DNA of 64,000 nucleotides from Myrmaecium sp. VS I D KN 1 (lineage: Eukaryota > Ascomycota > Dothideomycetes > Valsariales > Valsariaceae). A program made the translations under genes and the position numbers. Below the pieces are notes generated by a model, which had not been told where the DNA came from, ran no database searches, and saw only the letters and a list, made by a program, of their open reading frames with translations. The stretch covers positions 248,001-312,000 of the forward strand of contig JADQAV010000008.1 in assembly GCA_019775845.1 (NCBI GenBank), given 5' to 3'. Positions 16,655 to 47,575 of the stretch are shown one piece after another; position 1 is the first letter of the stretch; each line of letters starts with the position of its first letter.

Positions 16655-16978
16655 CTACCAACCAGTCAGCAGGAACACCTCACGCCTCAAATCAAGCGGG
16701 CACCAACTAAGCCAGGCCTCCGGATACAGATCCCAGAGTGAGCCCACAATGCCATCCACAATGCCATCGCGGCCGGCGCGCAGCTCACGCAGCTCCTCCC
16801 AGCCGACCTGGGCGCGGGTGATGGCGCGGTCGGTGATCTGGGCCTGGCGCATGGCCTCCTTGAAGTCGCCTTGGTCCACGAGGTCGAGGGCGCGGCGGTT
16901 GCAGGTGAAGCCGATGTTCATGTCGGAGATGACGGCGTTGGTCAGCGCGGTGACCTTGGGGTCTTCCGCGGTGGACAT
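16655..16978 (-). CDS. Small hypothetical protein, 107 aa
   Basis: A single-exon ORF starting MSTAEDPKVTAL and ending ...REVFLLTGW with TAG at 16655. I chose the ATG at 16978 over an in-frame one 186 bp upstream because the upstream part reads like leader sequence and the ATG sits in a good context. The protein is soluble-looking, acidic at the start and helix-prone (DQGDFKEAMRQAQ, then VGWEELRELRAGRDG), with three Trp in its last third. There is no signal peptide or membrane segment. Codons are G/C-rich at third positions, unlike the surrounding DNA, which supports real coding. I do not recognise the family. It is divergent from the intron-like array that starts about 560 bp to its right. 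Confidence 0.6.
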   Translation of the reverse strand: MSTAEDPKVTALTNAVISDMNIGFTCNRRALDLVDQGDFKEAMRQAQITDRAITRAQVGWEELRELRAGRDGIVDGIVGSLWDLYPEAWLSWCPLDLRREVFLLTGW

Positions 16979-17164
16979 GGTGGGTGTGGGTTGAGTTGGA
17001 GGTGGCGAGAGAAGGCTATTTATGGTTAGTAGGGATTGGAATGGAAGAGTTGATGAAGTAAGCATACGGAAGTGACTTGAGGGGTTGTTTAGGATCAGGA
17101 AACGAAGCTGGGAGTCCGGGGACGGTTTGAAGCCAGCAAAACAGGCAGAGCTGTAGGCGAGCAC

Positions 17165-17540
17165 GTGCCGTGGTTGAGGCGGGCGAGGGCTCCTTCGGTT
17201 AACTCTTCGTTGGTGCCCTACACTTGTCTCTCTCTCTTCACTCTTCCTCCCGCAAGGACCAGATCTTCAACAACACCACTTTTTTGCCTCTTCGACCTTC
17301 ATCACAACTACTGGTCAGTCAAGGACCTTCCTAGCCTCCTATCTTCTTCAACTTACTGACTCCTTCATCATCCTTCCTCCTTTCCGTGGCCGTCACTGTG
17401 CCTGCCACTTGGCTCCAGATCTTGGGAGAGTCAGCCTCCCCAATGCAGTGCCTCATGCATGGGAGTTTTCCACCGCCCTTCACTCAAACCTCTGTTGACT
17501 TCTTCAGCCTGGATATCTTGCAGCTGAACCACCAATCTTG
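17165..17540 (+). promoter_or_regulatory. Pyrimidine-rich leader before the intron array
   Basis: This plus-strand stretch is rich in CT runs (for example around 17225-17250, 17320-17350 and 17360-17385), the composition typical of transcription-start and 5' leader zones in filamentous ascomycetes. It lies directly upstream of the first intron-like unit at 17544 and between two divergent units, so it could be the start of a plus-strand transcript through the array. No TATA box or long ORF is evident. The assignment is inference from composition and position. Confidence 0.3.
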
Positions 17541-18700
17541 AAGGTAAATACCCTTTCCTATCGACAGTCGATGTGGACAGCTCACTGACCTCTTTGGATC
17601 CCAAACCAATCCGTTTGCGTTCATTTCGAGTGGATTCAAGATCTTCCAGAACACGGATGTTTGCCCCTAACCGTTGTTATATGCCCGAGTTCCGCCCTAC
17701 TTCTGCAGCTTTTACTTGAAGGTAAAGAACCTTTCATTCCCAAGCCAAGCAGAGTAGCTCACTAACCGCACTGGGTCACACATATCTATCACTGACGGCC
17801 TCGGAACGATCTTTCCAACAGCTTAGCTTCTATTTGAAGGTAATTATCCCTCCATCTTTTGAACCAGACGAAGCAGCATACTAACCAGTTGTGTCCCCAT
17901 ATATCTGCCCTGGGGTCTTGGATCGGCATTCCGTCTTCCTGCTGTCTCCAACAGCTTCAGCTAGTCTCAGAAGGTAATTAACCTCCCCCTTACGACGGCA
18001 TAGATCACAGCAAACTAACCATTCGGCTTCCCACTTCGTCTTTGGCGTCGACCGTTGCGAGCTGCTTTCGAGCACTGCTAGCAAGATCTTCTTGGATTCC
18101 TTCGTCCATCGGGCACTTCGACGAAACGAAACCGACAGCCAATACCGAGATCTGCAATTTGGGCTGTCCTCCTCGGACACAAGTCTCCCAAGCTCGTGTG
18201 CTTTCATAAGCCGGCATATAAGCCACTGTCGCTTATATAGTCACCGCTCCGAGCAGCCTGCCTATCAAACTATCTAATCACTTCCAATCTCAAGATCTGG
18301 GCTCCGGTCTAAGACCACCAGATCTCTGTGCCAGAACACCCACTTGGAGGTAATTAACCCTCCTTTCCTTCATTTTCGAAAACAGCACACTAACCGCTGT
18401 GGGCAGCAATCCTTATGGTCGTTTCCCGCTTTGTGCAGAGCCACTTTGAGATCGTACGACTTCTCCAGACTGTCAACGGTAATTAACCCTTCCTGGCCTC
18501 GTATTCGAGAACGGCACACTAACCACTTGGGACCGCGTTGGAGTTTTAACCCTTTCCGGTCTTTGCTGGTGATCTCGGAACAACATGCACACGATGCATC
18601 CGCTTGGAGGTAATTATACCTCCATTCCATCCGAGATCGCAGCATACTAACCACTCGGGGCCGCATACGCACCTCAATTCTCGCCTTGTCTGGAACCAGT
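17541..18700 (+). repeat. Array block 1: most diverged units (1-7)
   Basis: 5' sites lie at 17544, 17722, 17840, 17974, 18350, 18479 and 18610, with branch motifs at 17584 (ACTGAC), 17761, 17880, 18014, 18389, 18518 and 18646. Sites vary most here (GTAAATACC, GTAAAGAACC, GTAATTATCC), as expected of the oldest copies. The first AG after the branch is 12-13 nt away in unit 5, 21 in unit 6, and 42-56 in units 1, 2, 4 and 7. An isolated CCCTAACCG near 17665 and a 376-bp gap (17974 to 18350) mark lost or interrupted units. Sequence between units is not obviously repeated. Confidence 0.7.
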
Positions 18701-19935
18701 TCCCCAACCTGTCTGGGTGATTGACGGAAAATAACTCCGACGCCTGCCGTCAAGATCACAGCACACTAACCATTTGAGGCCCCCCATCTTGACCAGCCGG
18801 ATCTGCGATCTTTGTGAACTAGAAGGTGAGTAACCATTCCACCGTCAGATCAGGTCACAGCACACTAACCACGCGGTGTCCCATACCTGGCGGGATATTC
18901 ATGGCCACTCGGAGCTTCCAGTACACCGCCTGAATCAGCCGTTCTCCGGAAGAAAATAAGCAAACCAACTGCCAGCGGCCCTAAGTCTGCTGGGTTAAAA
19001 TGCTGAACCTCTATCACCTTGAAGGTAATTAACCTTCTCTCCGTTCAGCATGTTACAGCGCACTAACCAGTTGGTATCCCATACATACCCGACCGATCTC
19101 GCCTTCTGGTTGTCTCCTTAGGTTCTACCTCATACCTCTTGGAGGTAATTAACCTCCTACTCGTGAAGAGAGCAGCGCACTAACCACGCGGTGTCGCATA
19201 TCTACGCCCCCGATCTCGAGCTTTGGAGCCCTCAATATACTCGCATCTCTTGAAGGTAATTAACCCTCACGTTTCGATCTTTGACACCTTGAACAGCGTA
19301 CTAACCATTTGGTGTCTCATATCTACCCGGCCGGTCTCCCTCTTTGTGTTTGCCTTCTACTTCATACTTAGAGGTGAGTAACCCTCCTATCACAAAAGCA
19401 AGATCATCGCACTAACAGCATGATGTCCCATATCTACTCCCGTGATCTTAAGCTTTGGAGACTTTGATATACTCGCCTCACTTGCAGGTAATTTATTTTC
19501 CTTTTTCAGCAACTTGCACAGCGCACTAACCGCTTGGTGTCTTATACCTACCGGACCGGTTTCGCTGTCTCGATACCTTCGTTCTACTTCATACTTGGAG
19601 GTAAATAACCCTCCTATGCAAAAGGCAAGAGCAGCGCACTAACCGCGCGGTGCCGCATATTTACTTCTTCGATATCGATCCTGGGTTTTCTTCGGTGTAC
19701 TCGCATCACTCGAAGGTAAACAACCCTCCTTTTACGACGACGAGGACAGCGCACTAATCGCATGGTGTCCCATATCTACCCATTGGCTCTCGTCTTCTCG
19801 GCGTCTTCATCGAATCACACGATGTCCCATATCTGCTTCCTTATTACCAATATTCGGACGCCTCCGATATACTCGCATCACTTGAAGGTGCATAACCATC
19901 CTCTTTTAACGATCAGAACAGCATACTAACCGCTT
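18701..19935 (+). repeat. Array block 2: A-B dimer units (8-16)
   Basis: 5' sites lie at 18826, 19025, 19145, 19256, 19374, 19488, 19601, 19716 and 19888. Downstream of the branch nearly all carry GGTGTCCCATATCTACC. Two subtypes alternate. Type A (units at 19025, 19256, 19488) ends its spacer with a TTCTACTTCATACTTGGAG-like string. Type B (19145, 19374, 19601) ends with TACTCGCATCACTTGAAG. The A-to-A distances are 231 and 232 bp, and the B-to-B distances 229 and 227 bp, so this is a higher-order dimer repeat. The unit at 19716 is an A type fused to a B type whose 5' half is missing (a decayed ACACGATGTCCCATATCTGC lies near 19817). Units whose 5' sites are at 19488, 19601 and 19716 have no AG from the branch site to the AG abutting the next GT. 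Confidence 0.8.
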
Positions 19936-21300
19936 GATGCCCCATCTTGCCGGACGACTCCCAACTCTTCCACGGGAAAGCCGAATCGAATGGGCATTAA
20001 GTTCTCGATGATCTTTACATTCGTTATGACCTGGTTTGCAGCCTCTGGCGAGAAAGCGAAATGATGATTACAAAGAAGCGGGCCATGTACAGATGTCCCA
20101 CATCCAGAAACTCTCACATAGCTCGATACCCTTCACAATTCTGGACAAAGTGCGGCAAAGAGGGAGATCTTGGAGGTAATTACCCTTGAGCTTCCTTCAA
20201 GCATCAGAGGCGGCACACTAACCACTGAGGGCCACAAACGATGAGCGTTGTTTGCTATCGTAACAGACGATGCCGCCGGTGGCCTCGCCTGCTCGGCCCA
20301 CGTTCCAGTGTTCTCCACCGAAGGACCACGCACGATACTTCGCCCCGTCAGCGAATTGAACAGCTACCACCCTTTTCAATCATACTTTGGAGATTGCGCG
20401 GTACGCATCCCTTTGACGAGGCCTGATAGATCTTGGTACGCTGACCAGATCTCGATCGAACGATTTGCTTCCTTTTCTCCCAAGGCTTGCTAGCGTCACG
20501 CCGGACTCTCATTCCTTTGGGGATGTATTCAAAGGTAATTAACCCTCCATTTACATATCTAGAACAGTATACTAACCGCATGGGACCCCAAATCTGCAGC
20601 TTCGCTCATCGAATACTTTCTATTCGCCGCCGTACAAATGACCTCCCCTATGATATTTACTTACGACTCCTTGATTCCTGCCGCCAATCAAGCTTCTAAT
20701 GGCGGGTTCCTACACTCCGCTACGTCTCCATTCAAGATCCCCTCTTTCGAAGTCAACACTGACCCCCATCCGCCCCAGTATCCTGGAGGAGATCTTATGT
20801 CACTCTTGGAGGTAAATAACCCAGCCACTGTTTCTTTGAAGAGCGGAGCATAACCGCAAGGGGCCCATTACGATCTTCCACCATTCTATCCGTCATACGA
20901 GCATGATCCCACGGCACGAGACCAAGTCCTCGCCGGATCCATTTCAAATTCGCACACTCAACCGCACGGCCCCGTCCTACATGTTCCCTCTGGGCCTTGA
21001 AAATGGGAAGTAAATACCCCCGCCCTAGCACGTTCGAAGAGGCAGCGCACTAACCGTGTATGACCCACTGGCATCTCATATCTGAGCGAGCTCAATTGCC
21101 AGGAGCTACTCTCCTCTTCACTCAGCCCGATTCCGAACGCAATATCACGAGGATACGCCGTTCCACTGCATCCATGGTCAGATCTCGGCAGCTTACCTCG
21201 GTTACTCTACACAGGCATGTTCCTATCCTCTGTTCCGGAATTTCAACGCCGACGGAAGCTGGTCATGTGACCAGGAAGCGACTAGCGGGAGCGCAAGTGG
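19936..21300 (+). repeat. Array block 3: sparse units (17-20)
   Basis: 5' sites lie at 20176, 20535, 20812 and 21010, with branch motifs at 20217, 20571, about 20848 (decayed to GCATAAC) and 21049. Spacing is wide (198-359 bp), and the DNA between units is unique-looking and without any array motif. Unit 18 has a good 3' site candidate, AATCTGCAG, ending at 20603. Short ORFs across this block (for example 20241-20493 in two frames) conflict with each other and have no recognisable domain, so I do not call them genes. Confidence 0.6.
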
Positions 21301-22668
21301 TAAAATTTAAAGGTAATTAACCATCCTCTCCTGGCATTCAGATTACAGCATACTAACCGCATGTTGCTCCATCTGAGGCTAGGCGTTTTGTCCTTCCATG
21401 TTACCCACGCTGTCATGGACACTTGAAGGTAATTAACCATGTTCTCCTCGCATTTAGATCATAGCATACTAACCGCATGTAACCCTGTTCTTGGCCTCTA
21501 TTTCCTCGAGCGATTCACCGCCGGAACGATACTAGTCAGAGGAGAGGGACACGAAGTTAATTAACCCTGTCCTCCTTGTTATCTCGATCACGGCGCACTA
21601 ACCGCGTGCTGCCCCATCTTGGGCGTGCCATTCGGTCCCGTCTTGTGTATCGCGCATCATTATTCTCGGAAGCTAACACCTAGTCAGTGAAACAAATCGG
21701 AAGACATCGAATTGAAGGTAATTAACCCCGTCCTGCTTGATATCCAGATGACAGCATACTAAATTGGGCCGAGACATGTATTTGCCACGTCGCCGCCGTT
21801 CTCGCTCGATCAACAGCCTGGCTGTAGCCAGCCAGGCGGTAATCACTAGGTACTTTCTCGAAGGTAGTTAACTCTATCCTCCATCTCAAGATCGCACCTT
21901 ACTAACCGCGTTCTGCCCCATCTGGGGTGAGATATATATACTTCCTATACTATCACTTTGTATTACTCTGTCGCCATCTCCGACCGATCAACCCCCAAAA
22001 CATGACCAGCACGACGGCAATCACCCTTTACTTGAAGGTAAATAGTCCTGTTCTCTTGACAGTAAGATCACAGCGCACTAACCGCATGGTATCCCTTTCG
22101 GAGCTAGACGTGTGCCCCCTTGAAGGTAATTAACCCCGCCCTTATCGAACTCCTAGATCACAGCGTACTAACCGTGTATTGCCCCGTGCGGGGCTAGGTG
22201 TGCGACTGGAGTCGCTTCTACTATGTTCTACCAGCAGTCTTGAAGGTAATTAACCCCAATCCTACTGAATTTCAAAGTAACAGCGCACTAACCGCAGATT
22301 GCCCCAAATCGAGGTTTAGTATCGTTTGCGTTGGCGGCCTCCGCTGTTATTATTCTTGCAGGTAATTAACCCTCCCACTCCGGTCAGTTCAGAACAGCAC
22401 ACTAACTGCGATTGGCCCCAATTGGGGCTAGATCTCATACTGTTGGCTTCATATGCTCTCCGCTGCTATTGCTCTTGAAGGTACTTAACCCTCCCTCCTC
22501 GGTCTGTTGAGAACAGCGCACTAACCGCGGGTTGCCCTAACTGAGGAGCGGTTTTATATTGTTTACTTTATCTGCTGTCTGATGCTATCACTCTTGAAGG
22601 TAATTAACCCTACCCCTCCGAACGATTCAGAACAGCGCACTAACCGCGCGGGGCCCTATATTTTGCAG
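21301..22668 (+). repeat. Array block 4: complete-looking introns (21-31)
   Basis: 5' sites lie at 21313, 21429, 21556 (TT), 21718, 21864, 22038, 22126, 22246, 22362, 22481 and 22600. From 22126 on the period is steady at 116-120 bp. Units 21, 25, 26, 27, 29 and 31 each have an AG about 25 nt after the branch adenosine (units 28 and 30 at about 21-27 and 20-24). In several, that gap folds as a CCCC...GGGG stem ending in CTAG, for example GCCCCGTGCGGGGCTAG at 22181-22197 and GGCCCCAATTGGGGCTAG at 22414-22431. The last unit ends in TATATTTTGCAG (22657-22668), the most canonical 3' splice site of the array. These look like finished introns of about 65-70 nt with short exons (18-106 nt) between them. 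Confidence 0.75.
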
Positions 22669-23210
22669 CGTGGTCTTGAACGATTGTGCTGTGGTTCTGA
22701 TGGCGGCTGGATGGCGATGTCTTAGGAGAGAGAAGGGCTGGAGGACAAAGCATGAGGGGTCAAACGCCGGTGGGGAAGGCTTGGAGAGGTGGCACGGCAG
22801 GCTTTTGGGATGCATGTTGTCAAGCACAACTACTAGACGGCCAGCAGGCTGCGTGGATTCTGAAGATATCAGTTACAGAATATCTAAACGCACAGCAATC
22901 AAAAATAGAGCTATACCTAATTTGTAGCGTGGCTTGCAGGTCAATGTAATTGCTAACACTGGCACCGCCTCTTTCTTGGATAAGCAGCCCAACCCACGGA
23001 AACGCCCCATAGACTTCCGGCTGCTGTTCCGTTTGCTTTATTTCCCTTAGTAGCATAGAAACCCACAAAAATGAGAACTGCCTGATTCTATGGAAAAAGG
23101 GATACTTGCTGCTCTCTCAAAATCTCCGTACACGAATTCCTCACCCAAGCAATCTGAAGACCCGCCAAAATCAACAACAAGTTGGCCACCTGACCTGTCT
23201 TCCGTCGCTG
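22669..23210 (+). other. Possible terminal exon and spacer after the array
   Basis: This follows the canonical TTTTGCAG of the last array unit and contains no further array motif. If the array is transcribed and spliced, the last exon would start at 22669. Open frames such as 22670-22927 are short and unrecognised. No clear polyadenylation signal is evident. Confidence 0.25.
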
Positions 23211-23219
23211 TCATGTGAA

Positions 23220-23280
23220 GCTGCCGTTGCAAGCACGGCAGGCGGCTCGCTTAGTGCGTGCTGCACGCACACTAAGCTCA
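23220..23280. promoter_or_regulatory. Two adjacent hairpins before a CT-rich leader
   Basis: Two inverted repeats sit side by side: GCCGT(23223)...ACGGC(23239), and CTTAGTGCGTG (23250-23260) facing CACGCAC-ACTAAG (23264-23276) with a 3-base loop and a 2-base bulge. Immediately downstream is a long CT-rich plus-strand stretch (23280-23420) of the kind that precedes fungal ATGs, but the first ATG there (23440) opens only a six-codon frame. This could be an operator, an RNA hairpin in a leader, or chance. Confidence 0.3.
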
Positions 23281-26200
23281 CCTCTTGTTCGTTCTCTCCT
23301 CTACTTGAACACAACACCTCGTCAACATCTTCATCTCATCCAAGTTCGCAACAAGCTTCAATCCTTCCTTGCTTCATCTCTTCTGTACCAGCATCTCATT
23401 CCTTACCCTTGCTTCACTTGACAACCATCAATCGCTGCTATGCACGACGCGAAGTGACGACGGACAACCGTCACCGTCGCATAAACAATCAACCGACAGA
23501 GCAAACGCCATCAACACAAACAAAGCCACAACTAACACATCCCATCCTACAAGCTCAATCAGTTGAAGCATGCTAACTTTACATTAGGAACTCTGCAACC
23601 ACCACTCGCATCGAGTGATCTTTCTGGCAGTAATCACCAACCGGTCCTTCGTCCCATCAAGCAGACATTGGCCGAGACGGACGCTGCCTAGATTAGATTC
23701 CCAGCGACGATCCATCACACCGGGGCGTTCTTCTAATATGAGCGTCTTGACCTGAAGAGTCGTACATCTCAAGTAGATAGAGCGTGCAGAGCGATCGACC
23801 GACCGGGCGGTTCAATAACAATTGAATTTCATATATTATCAACATGAATCGAGCCTTCATTTCCTCTTCCCGCCACGGTTCTTCCAAATTCATGTAATCT
23901 CCTTCCATGATGCAATTCACTTCAACTCCACGCCTCCTCTGTTGGCCCTTGCGAAACCTCCCATGCAAGCGGTCCTTGATCACGGAGGCAAGAGTAATAA
24001 CAACCCCTTCAACCACTTTTGGAGATGGCTTCGCAGCTGTTTCCAAGCAAAAAGTGGTCCTGGCGACTTCAGGCGCTTTGCAGCTTCGATGGGGTCCCCA
24101 GGAAGAAGAAAAGATTGTACATGTTAATAGATATAGATAGCTTAATCAAATCCATTCATATTCTTGTTTGTTCTAGTTTGACTTCTCGCTGCTCGATGTT
24201 CTTATTTCTATCACGCTCCCAGTCTTGGATGTGTGAAGCTAGCGCGCGATAATCAAAAGGGGCCGACGCGGCCTGCTAGCAGCTGAGTCGGGCCCATCTC
24301 CTTTATCACCTATCGCAGCCACGGAATTGGTAAGTACATTAATCTACGCGGTACCTTTGACCCAAAGCCCTTCCAGTATGCTGGATAATATGTTCATGCC
24401 GACTTTCTCCCTCCTCAGCTCGAAAGCTCATCGCCCCTCTTAGAGCTGGTTTCTTTATTTACCTGCTGAAGCTGTCCACCTCTCTGGAAGGTGTCGGACA
24501 CATCGAATCAAGAGAGAAGGAAATCGAGAATATGGGATTATGAGACGGGAACTAGCAACCGGTGACGGCATTATCTTTGTGTATGCTGACGTGCATCATA
24601 TACGGTTGATTACTATATATAAGAAGAAGTCCATTAGATGAAGTGATCATCCTTCCGGAGCTCCATTAAGCATATTTATTATGACTCAGACTTTCCAGCG
24701 TACTCAGAAAGCTATAGGCCTTAATTCTAAAAGTTGAAGTTGCAGCAACATTGGCATTACTAGGCATTAATTATACAGTACCTTCAGTAAAGAATTACAT
24801 CCTCCGGCTGGTATAGAGGGAGAACATGCCTGATTAGCAGGCTAATGTCCGCAAAGCATGAAGTAGCCGACCCGCTCGTTCTGTGTCTACACCCCACCTC
24901 AAATGACTGTACAAACATCCAGTCGGTAAATGACCAATCTAGGGCTAGGGTTTTGTCGGAGGAGCGATGAATGGCATCCCCGCTGGGACATTGAAGAGGA
25001 AAGTGGGGTTTGGTCGCTAAGCGAGCAAAGGGCAAGGCTGGCCAATCGCAAATCGGACGACGTGGGAGCCGAGCTTGGTTTCGCGCATTGCGCTTGGCCC
25101 TCGCCAGATGTTTGGACTGCCGTGAAGGGAGTGTTGTTATCCCTACAAAGTTGGTGATTATTATATACCGTCAACACCGTTATAGGACATAATATCTGCT
25201 GTGGGAGCGTGTGTCTTTGGTAAATCTTCATTTCGTCTAGGCTATGCGACCGGCAGAAATCAAGCGCCTGTTCAAACCGAAATGAATCAGACAAATATAG
25301 GATCCACGAGAAGCAAGTGATGACAAAGGAGTTCCAAGCGCTGCAGAGATTCGCAACAGTTCTGCGCTGTTGCTTTAACCGAACGAACTAATTGGGCACG
25401 AGACGGGCAAAGGAGAGGCAATCTGCAATACAAGCCCGGGAATTGAAGGAAGAGGTGAGAAGGGGACGGCCGGCTAAGTTTGTGCGCTATAGTCGTGGCG
25501 GGGCATTCTCTGCGATGTACGCTCACGCGGCGTGGACAATGCAACAATAAATCCAGTATTACATGAGATGAGCAGACAGGCATGCAACAAGTTGGCGACT
25601 GGTCGCTATCCTCTCTCTCTCGTAGAGCAGGTCGCTGCTGCGTATATAGCTTCTGGGTCAGCGCACGATGGTTCGGCGCCAGCGTTGAAAGACGCAAGTC
25701 CCATACACACTGAGACTACCTCAAGTATCATAAGAATGCAGAGAAGGGCCCGCTACACCGGCAATTCATTGCTTGCAGTACCATAATGCTTCATTGTCCA
25801 TCTATGCACTCAGAAAGACTGGCTTCTTCCAGTCAACGGACAGCGCGAGCAAGTCCCCTTTTAAGTCGTAGAGTGGAGCCTCTAATCCCCGTTGCTACCT
25901 AGCCATGCGTCCGCTTCAGTCGGTGTGGTAGAGCAACGGGATCGAGCCGACAAGGGCCTCGCAGCCGTGGATTCTAGACTTCGATGCGGCATACACGCTG
26001 GCCCTCGGGGACGGGACTGGCTCAGGCTAAAGAGAGAGTACGCCGATAACTCTTAGGCACGGAAGCGCTCTGAAGATAATGGTCATGGGTATATGCAGTG
26101 CAATTCGAGCACCCACAGAATGCAGCCCATTACGAAGAAGGATGGAAATTCTAATAAAGAATGTGAACAGACGAAAGACCTGTTTGTGTGACTTTGCCGA

Positions 26201-44149: not shown

Positions 44150-44465
44150 AAGGGCGAAAGGCGAAGAGCGGAGCTCACCTATTCGTCGCTCGCCTATATT
44201 CATTGCTCGCCTGCGCTCGTCGCTTGCCTACGCTTGTCGCTTACCCGCGCTCGTCGCTCGCCTATACTTATCGCTCGCCCGTACTCGTCGCTTCCCTATA
44301 CTTATCGCTCGCCGGCGCTCATCGCTCGCCTGCGCTCGTCGCCCGCCCACGCTCGTCGCTCATCCGCTCGCCCGCTTATTACTTATTACTCGCCCGCTTA
44401 TTACTTACCCGCCGCTTATCCTTCCTATTAATAATGCGCATCCTTCTAAACCGGCGTCGGCGGTA
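44150..44465. repeat. CGCTCGTCGCTCGCC minisatellite (left, reversed orientation)
   Basis: About 300 bp of degenerate 7- to 15-bp words: CGCTCGCC, CGCTCGTCG, TATACTTAT, CCGCTTATTACTTA. Its first 25 bases (44150-44175) read the other way (GGGCGAAAGGCGAAGAGCGG), making a head-to-head junction. The reverse complement matches the style of the arrays at 46675 and 47395 (GGCGAGCG, GAGTAAGAGCGGG). Short ORFs across it are repeat artefacts. Confidence 0.85.
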
Positions 44466-46674: not shown

Positions 46675-47018
46675 AAGGCGATAGGCGATAGGCGACGGGC
46701 GACGGGCGACGGGCGACGGGCGAAAGGCGACGGGCGACAGGCGAAAGGCGAAGGGCGAGAAGGCAAGAGAGTATACGGGCGAGAGAGTAAGCGGGCGGGT
46801 AAGTAAGAGTGGGCGAGCGAGGGCGGGCGGGCGAGTAAGAGCGGGTAAGAGAGAGCGAGTAAGAGAAAGCGAGCGAGAAAGAATAAGCGAGAGAGAGTAA
46901 GCGAAAAAGAGTAAAGTAAATAAAAGAGAATAAATAAGAAAGAGCGAGTAAGAGAGAGCGAGCGAGAAAGAGCGAGCAGGCGCTAGGGCGATAGGGCGAT
47001 AAGGCGAAAGGCGAAGGG
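46675..47018. repeat. GGCGACG minisatellite (right, forward orientation)
   Basis: It begins with 7-bp units GGCGATA and GGGCGAC (about 14 in a row), passes into GGCGAAA/GGGCGAG and then into GAGCGAGTAAGAGA-type 12-16 bp words, and ends with GGCGATAAGGCGAAAGGCG. It is the mirror orientation of the array at 44150-44465. Beyond it the DNA becomes AT-rich, as it does beyond the left array. Confidence 0.9.
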
Positions 47019-47394
47019 TAATAAGAACTAGTATAGAGCTTATAATAATAAGAAACTGATAATAGATAGAAATTTAATAGATAGGGGCCGCTTAGGTATA
47101 GAGTATAAGCTTTAATACCTTACTACCTAAATTAATCAATTTTTAATAATAAGGCTGAACCGGGAAAGCTATAGCCCTATAAAATAATGTATCTATAATA
47201 AAAAGTAATTTAGAGTCTACTATAGAATATCTATCCTTCCTAGAAGTAGTTAAATTAATATAAATTCTATTATTATTTAATTTAGATATTTTATAGCTAT
47301 AAAAATAGTCTTTAAACCTAAGTTTTTATATAGAAGAGGGGTTAATAAGATATTAGTAGGGCTATAACTTTTCCGGTATAGCCTTACACCCTTA
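47019..47394. repeat. AT-rich RIP-like segment between two minisatellites
   Basis: About 375 bp with the same look as the large AT-rich block (TAATA, CTATA, TATAG words, very few CpA/TpG). It separates two GGCGA arrays of the same orientation. It is presumably a remnant of a mutated repeat. Confidence 0.55.
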
Positions 47395-47575
47395 TAATAG
47401 GTAATAGGCGATAGGTAATAGGTAACGGGCGAGAGGGCGAGCGGGTAAGAGGGCGAGCGGGCGATGAGCGATGGGCGAAGGGTAAGGGCGAGAGGGCGAG
47501 AGAGTGGAGGGCGAGAGGGCGAGAGGGCGCAGGGCGCAGGGCGCAGGGCGGAGGGCGGAGGGCAGGCCTTTTACT
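47395..47575. repeat. Second GGCGAGA/GGGCGAG minisatellite
   Basis: About 180 bp: GGCGATAGGTAATA, then GGGCGAGAGGGCGAGCGGGT, GGCGAGAGGGCGAG and GGGCGCAGGGCGGAGGGC units. Same orientation as the array at 46675, with slightly different 7-bp variants (GGGCGCA, GGGCGGA). Confidence 0.88.

Follow-up and report, generated by a model that had tools for sequence, protein, structure and literature searches.

What would a fungus do with some thirty 5' splice sites, each followed by a branch site, laid head to tail over 5.1 kb of DNA? The question is raised by a locus of Myrmaecium sp. VS I D KN 1 (contig JADQAV010000008.1, positions 248,001 to 312,000), of which the whole 64,000-nt stretch, here called the window, was analysed; all positions below are those of the window. 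An earlier note on this DNA had described about 31 intron-like units and suggested a multi-intron non-coding RNA, a source nest for introner-like elements, or a processing platform releasing many short RNAs. It made no mention of the fact that almost none of the branch sites is followed by a usual 3' splice site. Taking this absence into account, we propose tentatively, with a probability of about 0.4, that the locus may encode a long non-coding transcript with about 30 splice cassettes that proceed through the first step of splicing only.

A one-strand array of paired boxes

The array consists of 32 head-to-tail units, all on the + strand, at positions 17,534-22,670; the array described earlier is therefore real, and its count and limits are corrected. 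Each unit contains box 1, CTTGAAG|GTAATTAACCC, in which the bar marks the putative 5' splice junction, followed by box 2, ACAGCRYACTAACCGC, which holds the putative branch site. Donor GT positions span 17544-22600 and branch A positions span 17588-22643 (32 pairs, all + strand), and in the 32 units the branch A lies 38-48 nt from the G of GT. The repeat step measures 88-134 bp for 19 of the 31 successive pairs of units and 146-376 bp for the other 12. Position 22,668, where the array had been taken to end, is the G of an acceptor-like sequence, TTTTGCAG, located 25 nt past the last branch A.

The region 17,500-22,720 was scanned for donor/branch pairs with fixed thresholds (donor at least 9 of 13, branch at least 6 of 7). 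Thirty pairs were obtained on the + strand and none on the opposite strand, whereas 300 first-order Markov resamplings gave a mean of 0.09 pairs and a maximum of 2, so the alternation of 5' sites and branch sites on one strand holds up. The same thresholds yielded 4 pairs in total on both strands of the other 11 segments scanned within the 64 kb. Under a profile made from the 32 units, these score 35.6-66.5 bits and everything else 7.9 bits or less; because the profile was trained on the same 32 units, these values show a sharp separation, not an independent discovery. Next in score comes a 30-base relic left by a decayed unit and consisting of the post-branch part only (19813-19842, + strand, 7.9 bits), which suggests that units are either intact or gone. 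The donor GT is kept in 30 of the 32 units, the exceptions being unit 8 (GA) and unit 24 (TT), and an AG directly 5' of the donor creates an AG|G junction in 29. Some units are recent duplicates, as indicated by a 232-bp period at 19,013-19,781. No open reading frame (ORF) of at least 150 aa overlaps 17,165-23,105, in agreement with the earlier note.

Conservation of the boxes and their likeness to splice signals

Identity was computed between units at least six apart, a filter that largely removes pairs of recent duplicates. Between such distant units the identity is 0.767 for box 1 and 0.766 for box 2, against a chance value of 0.255. The block just past the branch has an identity of 0.466, and the remaining stretches between the boxes (0.241-0.272) are at the chance level. 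The boxes were thus kept in nearly every unit while the neutral sequence around them diverged to the level of chance, which suggests that the function needs many units, and on this comparison of sequences the two boxes look selected. The same data count against the release of functional short RNAs proposed earlier, since the stretches between boxes beyond the post-branch block are 24-28% identical (25.5% by chance) and no consensus RNA structure was predicted over the 32 units. A hairpin that would pull a TAG acceptor close to the branch was considered and rejected as a general feature; it is striking in a few 3' units (26 and 30), and the mean z is -0.21.

The pattern of substitution within the boxes follows splice signals. 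The T and the branch A of ACTAAC are the only invariant columns in the 94-column, 32-unit alignment. Donor position +3 is A in 29 units and G in 3, with no other base, and branch position -1 is always A or G. ACTAAC is present in 28 of the 32 units and TACTAAC in 9; among candidate introns of the host, ACTAAC occurs in 1 of 18 in one set and 1 of 33 in another. The array thus has the unusually strong branch site that is a feature of RNAs cleaved in the first step only.

Candidate host introns were collected by looking for breaks in long reading frames across 200 kb of the genome and the right part of the window. This is a rough set of 18 candidates with GTRNG donors (R, purine; N, any base), some of them nested, and decoy starts GA, CT and GC gave 9, 4 and 5, respectively. 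The donor-branch distance is 38-46 nt in 11 of these 18, matching the 38-48 nt of the array, and the acceptor lies 9-22 nt past the branch. Of the host's own donors, GTGAGT, GTATGT and GTAAGT are enriched upstream of a branch and a YAG (Y, pyrimidine), a context in which GTAATT (0 of 25) and GTAAAT (0 of 34) were not seen. Within the array the donor has G at +5 in just 2 of the 32 units. The 5' end of U1 is canonical in both copies found, each of which scores below the family cut-off, so the odd donor of the array is not explained by an altered U1. The U2 sequence GTAGTA is present in both copies read, of six. Small nuclear RNA matches in the genome comprise two for U1, one for U6 and six for U2, the last on six contigs including the window's own. 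By eye, box 1 could also pair with U6 (7 of 8 bases to GGTCAATT), which was judged likely to be chance.

A sequence outside the array, C57 (L094, 415,860), matches box 1 at 16 of 17 positions. Its donor opens an apparent 77-nt phase-0 coding intron with the branch GCTAAC, a CAG 18 nt past the branch A and an open frame thereafter. This intron, deduced from reading frames alone, looks normal and so supports box 1 as a donor; a +5 T donor of the box 1 type is probably spliceable in this fungus when given an acceptor. The argument for a dead end accordingly leans more on the missing acceptor and the strong branch site and less on the donor.

The acceptor is depleted

A YAG whose AG falls 9-24 nt downstream of the branch A is found in 2 of the 32 units, compared with 11.6 ± 2.7 in shuffled sequences, and a count as low as 2 was reached in 1 of 2000 shuffles. 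When the interval is widened to 9-29 nt, 9 of the 32 units contain a YAG (15.0 expected). A YAG occurs anywhere before the next donor in 24 of 31 units (27.5 expected), seven have none, and YAG sites between branch and next donor number 64 against 92.6 expected. The acceptor window of the array is strikingly poor, with no sign of selection for an acceptor. The earlier proposal of a multi-intron non-coding RNA therefore survives in part: the motifs are splice-like (invariant T and A, A or G at +3, the spacing of the host's own introns, the C57 donor), but with their acceptors depleted most units do not resemble ordinary introns. A distant or missing acceptor or a non-canonical donor, as in first-step-only RNAs, is found here. 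The complete intron with acceptor that defines introner-like elements is not, and of the features of cryptic introns in long non-coding RNAs (lncRNAs), the 5' site and the branch are present and the acceptor is depleted.

The array occurs at a single locus

The genome searched comprises 25.66 Mb, and the searches score best candidates only. A blastn search with 17,200-22,800 returned the self-match only. The exact unit pattern occurs at 12 places in the genome, all inside the array, and the word GTAATTAACC at 20 places, 14 of them inside it. ACTAAC is not present near any of the six outside GTAATTAACC words (five stretches and one in L022); L090 has CTAAT 71 nt downstream and L022 has CTGAC about 50 nt downstream. 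With mismatches allowed, box 1 is found outside the array at 23 places (24 in a reversed control) and box 2 at 40 places (36 in the control). A second array was sought as pairs of ACTAACC 95-125 bases apart, and none emerged: such pairs occur at 14 places, 11 of them here, and the reversed control gave 7 + 5. A nest of introner elements, as suggested by the earlier note, is rejected, because these searches of the 25.66 Mb found neither dispersed copies of the unit nor a second array, the exact pattern is confined to this locus and mismatched boxes are at the control level. Pattern matches in 10 viral-collection and 37 prokaryote stretches, one in each, were taken as chance, and the unit model applied to those 10 viral stretches and 20 stretches of the host's genome gave a single 12.2-bit match (L046) and no array.

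Proposed first-step-only cassettes and competing explanations

The computed features, namely the boxes with their conservation and spacing, the strong branch, the acceptor depletion and the single locus, bring to mind published cases of arrest after step one. It is the combination of a strong branch, proper spacing and a missing acceptor that leads us to propose an RNA with about 30 cassettes. In the course of events that we infer, from transcription through spliceosome assembly and first-step cleavage to downstream use, RNA polymerase II would produce a non-coding + strand transcript that presumably starts near 17.2 kb. Each of the roughly 30 cassettes would offer a 5' splice site and a strong branch site at normal spacing, with no acceptor at the usual place. 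U1 and U2 would bind every cassette and spliceosomes would assemble; some cassettes would pass the first step, being cut at CTTGAAG|GU to give a lariat intermediate. The second step would then fail or be slow, and the spliceosome would stall or discard the intermediates. Because the stretches between the boxes are unconserved, we expect the effect to arise as the RNA engages spliceosomes, whether by trapping them, by RNA decay or by bringing in silencing factors, and not from the sequences between the boxes. One specific form of this proposal is a dedicated trap, in which many spliceosomes would be captured or stalled at once, titrating splicing genome-wide or marking the RNA's own locus for silencing. 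Although the trap would account for the high copy number of acceptor-less cassettes, since capturing many spliceosomes would be the RNA's job, we regard it as unlikely.

Several observations weigh against the proposal of first-step-only cassettes. The missing G at +5 in 30 of 32 units might weaken the first step too. The depletion test (2 of 32 units) overstates its strength, because the units are related by descent and hence not independent; YAG is somewhat rare anyway, at 0.80-0.88 of expectation in two flanks, and 24 of 31 units could possibly splice to a distant YAG. Conservation was gauged between units of this array only. No Sm-like site was noticed by eye 5' of the cleavage site. The third block, past the branch (47% identical), is not accounted for, and the boxes exceed the length of splice signals: T at -6 is present in 30 of 32 units, and C at +9 and C at +10, beyond what splicing needs, are present in 29 units each.

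This excess over the splice consensus would be better explained by a binding protein. In that case a sequence-specific protein would recognise the paired boxes, about 18 and 16 bp long, as DNA, and the array would serve as a boundary, silencer, enhancer or replication element whose likeness to splice signals is accidental. Such an array needs neither an acceptor nor an RNA structure, and an AT-rich island ends about 2 kb upstream. We nevertheless find this account doubtful, if worth serious attention, because splice cores are present in both boxes in the correct order, on the correct strand and at the spacing of the host's own introns, and because the substitutions obey splice rules (A or G at +3 and at branch -1, invariant T and branch A). 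The box-to-box distance also wobbles over 38-48 nt instead of being fixed, and copies outside the array are at the control level, which is unusual for a general regulator. A non-coding gene rich in ordinary introns, in which the units are spliced to distant and variable acceptors and leave exons of about 10-50 nt, would fit the 24 of 31 units with a YAG ahead of the next donor, the first three spacers, which end in pyrimidine-CAG 13-19 nt before the next donor (by eye), and the near-identical donor seemingly used by a coding gene at C57. That acceptors are fewer than chance would give (in 24 units, 27.5 expected; at 64 sites, 92.6 expected) and are lacking before the next donor in seven units makes it improbable, as do the lack of conservation in the would-be exons and the placement of acceptors 9-22 nt past the branch in the host's own introns.

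The AG|G junction at 29 of the 32 sites raises the further idea of a single 5.1-kb intron that would be removed stepwise through recursive splicing, with zero-length exons as AG|GT ratchet points, and would end at 22,668. Units 12 and 14-16 have no AG from the branch to the last three bases before the next GT, and TTTTGCAG follows the last unit alone. At a ratchet point, however, a YAG would stand directly 5' of the GT, and here a purine precedes the AG in 30 of 32 units; candidate introns of the host that join frames and have GTRNGT donors end in YAG in 25 cases versus RAG in 7. Moreover, the stretch from a branch to the next donor is not generally free of AG (137 occurrences, 156 expected), and recursive splicing thus appears very unlikely. 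Of still lower probability is a host gene for small structured RNAs, one per unit, of the small nucleolar RNA (snoRNA) kind. The array shares its layout with known tandem-intron hosts, which have 29 and 48 tandem introns (PMC11608373), but no Rfam family matched at the gathering level in the 64 kb, the one match in 17,000-24,300 being at chance level (E = 1); the 32 units have no consensus fold, and post-branch hairpins occur in few of them (mean z -0.21).

Relation to known systems

The first-step-only reading has precedents. In Schizosaccharomyces pombe TER1, a branch site fully complementary to U2 together with a long branch-acceptor distance leads to cleavage by the first step only, and in the telomerase RNA of other fungi an unusual 5' splice site stops splicing after step one (PMC4299874). 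Spliceosomal cleavage without ligation has been described at single sites, in telomerase RNAs and a small number of mRNAs. The varied sequence basis of this cleavage is reported to have hampered the search for more cases (PMC4299874). The telomerase RNAs of S. pombe, other fission yeasts and Aspergillus resemble the array in having a donor and a branch in a non-coding RNA, and TER1 does so further in its strong branch site without a near acceptor (PMC4299874). They have one site per RNA and a conserved 5' product, whereas the array has about 30 sites with unconserved sequence between them, and its cleavage is a prediction. In the BDF2 mRNA of Saccharomyces cerevisiae, a badly placed, distant acceptor makes the second step inefficient and the products are degraded (PMC3792478); this spliceosome-mediated decay shares with the array the donor and branch that drive the first step, but involves a single mRNA site and no array (PMC3792478). 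Cryptic introns in S. pombe lncRNAs engage splicing factors without being efficiently spliced and bring in silencing by way of Pir2/ARS2 (PMC7229227), so that a silencing outcome is possible in a fungus. These introns are small in number, match the splice consensus at their 5' and 3' ends alike and do not lie in tandem, in contrast to the tandem, acceptor-depleted array.

The earlier note was not aware of any description of a dense head-to-tail nest at one locus. Tandem-intron non-coding genes are known, however; SNHG14 (SNORD115/116), for one, resembles the array in that a single non-coding gene holds dozens of introns in tandem (PMC11608373). Its introns each give rise to a snoRNA, whereas searches of the array turned up neither a snoRNA nor a structure and its acceptors are depleted, so that the claim of novelty has to be narrowed. 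Fungal introner-like elements likewise represent multiplied intron-like sequence in an ascomycete (PMC4457414); they are complete introns spread through genes, unlike the array with its one locus and no dispersed copies. A tandem array of acceptor-less introns was not found described in the open-access literature searched (titles and abstract beginnings). Tandem introns in a non-coding gene and single first-step-only cassettes are thus known already; what those open-access titles and abstract beginnings did not show is the two combined, with acceptors lacking and without a small RNA found within. Should the proposal of first-step-only cassettes be true, the locus would provide a natural multi-site substrate of about 30 cassettes for the fate of stalled spliceosomes, and a test bed both for the titration of splicing by a decoy RNA and for stalled splicing that feeds silencing outside S. 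pombe. If the locus is a DNA-binding array instead, its close mimicry of splice signals itself needs explaining.

Positions of the units and surrounding sequence

The proposed transcript would presumably have its promoter-proximal region and 5' exon at 17210-17543 on the + strand, a CT-rich sequence without a long ORF as judged by eye. The units that follow on the same strand are given below with their limits and then the positions of the donor GT and the branch A. Unit 1 (17534-17616; 17544, 17588) has the branch sequence ACTGAC. Behind it stand units 2 (17712-17787; 17722, 17765), 3 (17831-17904; 17840, 17884) and 4 (17970-18047; 17974, 18018). Unit 5 (18340-18413; 18350, 18393) is one of the two with a YAG 9-24 nt past the branch A, the other being unit 19 (20526-20605; 20535, 20575). 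After units 6 (18473-18543; 18479, 18522) and 7 (18601-18677; 18610, 18650) comes unit 8 (18720-18795), in which GA replaces the donor GT at 18727 and the branch A is at 18769. GTGAGT is the donor of unit 9 (18817-18897; 18826, 18868) and of unit 13 (19364-19445; 19374, 19415), which enclose units 10 (19017-19096; 19025, 19066), 11 (19136-19213; 19145, 19183) and 12 (19247-19334; 19256, 19304). Units 14 (19478-19558; 19488, 19529), 15 (19591-19672; 19601, 19642) and 16 (19707-19784; 19716, 19757) precede the relic mentioned above, and units 17 (19879-19949; 19888, 19929) and 18 (20167-20252; 20176, 20221) lie beyond it.

Downstream of unit 19, box 2 is damaged (CATAAC) in unit 20 (20802-20881; 20812, 20853). 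It is followed by units 21 (21002-21070; 21010, 21053), 22 (21304-21387; 21313, 21356) and 23 (21419-21496; 21429, 21472). TT replaces the donor GT at 21557 in unit 24 (21552-21629), with the branch A at 21601, and unit 25 (21710-21762; 21718, 21762) has the branch sequence ACTAAAT. The 3' part of the array is formed by units 26 (21854-21931; 21864, 21905), 27 (22028-22111; 22038, 22081), 28 (22117-22201; 22126, 22171), 29 (22237-22314; 22246, 22291), 30 (22352-22433; 22362, 22405) and 31 (22471-22552; 22481, 22524). In unit 32 (22590-22670; 22600, 22643) the branch A is followed by TTTTGCAG ending at 22668, the best acceptor-like sequence of the array.

The AT-rich island to the left extends over roughly 1-15.4 kb, with a GC content of about 25% and an abrupt right edge about 2 kb upstream of the array. 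Its TpA/ApT ratio is 1.71, against 0.50-0.89 elsewhere; a raised ratio of this kind is the pattern given by mutation of the repeat-induced point mutation (RIP) type. GC contents sampled to the left of the window are 0.50-0.61 (4-30 kb), 0.27 (40 kb) and 0.56 (60 kb), and this variation, with its low value at 40 kb, suggests that the island is one of several. The genome carries 4 Piwi and 4 RNA-dependent RNA polymerase (RdRP) loci.

A small reading frame at 16,655-17,164 on the - strand lies head to head with the array and encodes 169 aa from a GTG or, by eye, about 107 aa from an inner ATG. Of 75 candidates compared with it, none was a homologue at E <= 0.001, and Pfam gave no match. No tRNA was called in the 64-kb window. 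An MFS transporter encoded in the window is 51-58% identical to the best 120 relatives listed for it; the named ones that rank highest come from lichen fungi and Dothideomycetes, which points to a filamentous ascomycete with no close relative among those listed. On the other side of the array, the sequence at 23,250-24,200 has a CT-rich, promoter-like start and no ORF of 150 aa beyond 23,576, and may represent another non-coding transcript or else a long leader. Degenerate tandem repeats are located at 44,183-44,361 and 46,676-47,563, with 17/34-base repeats of the TCGTCGCTCGCC type and purine-rich repeats of the GGCGAGAG type.

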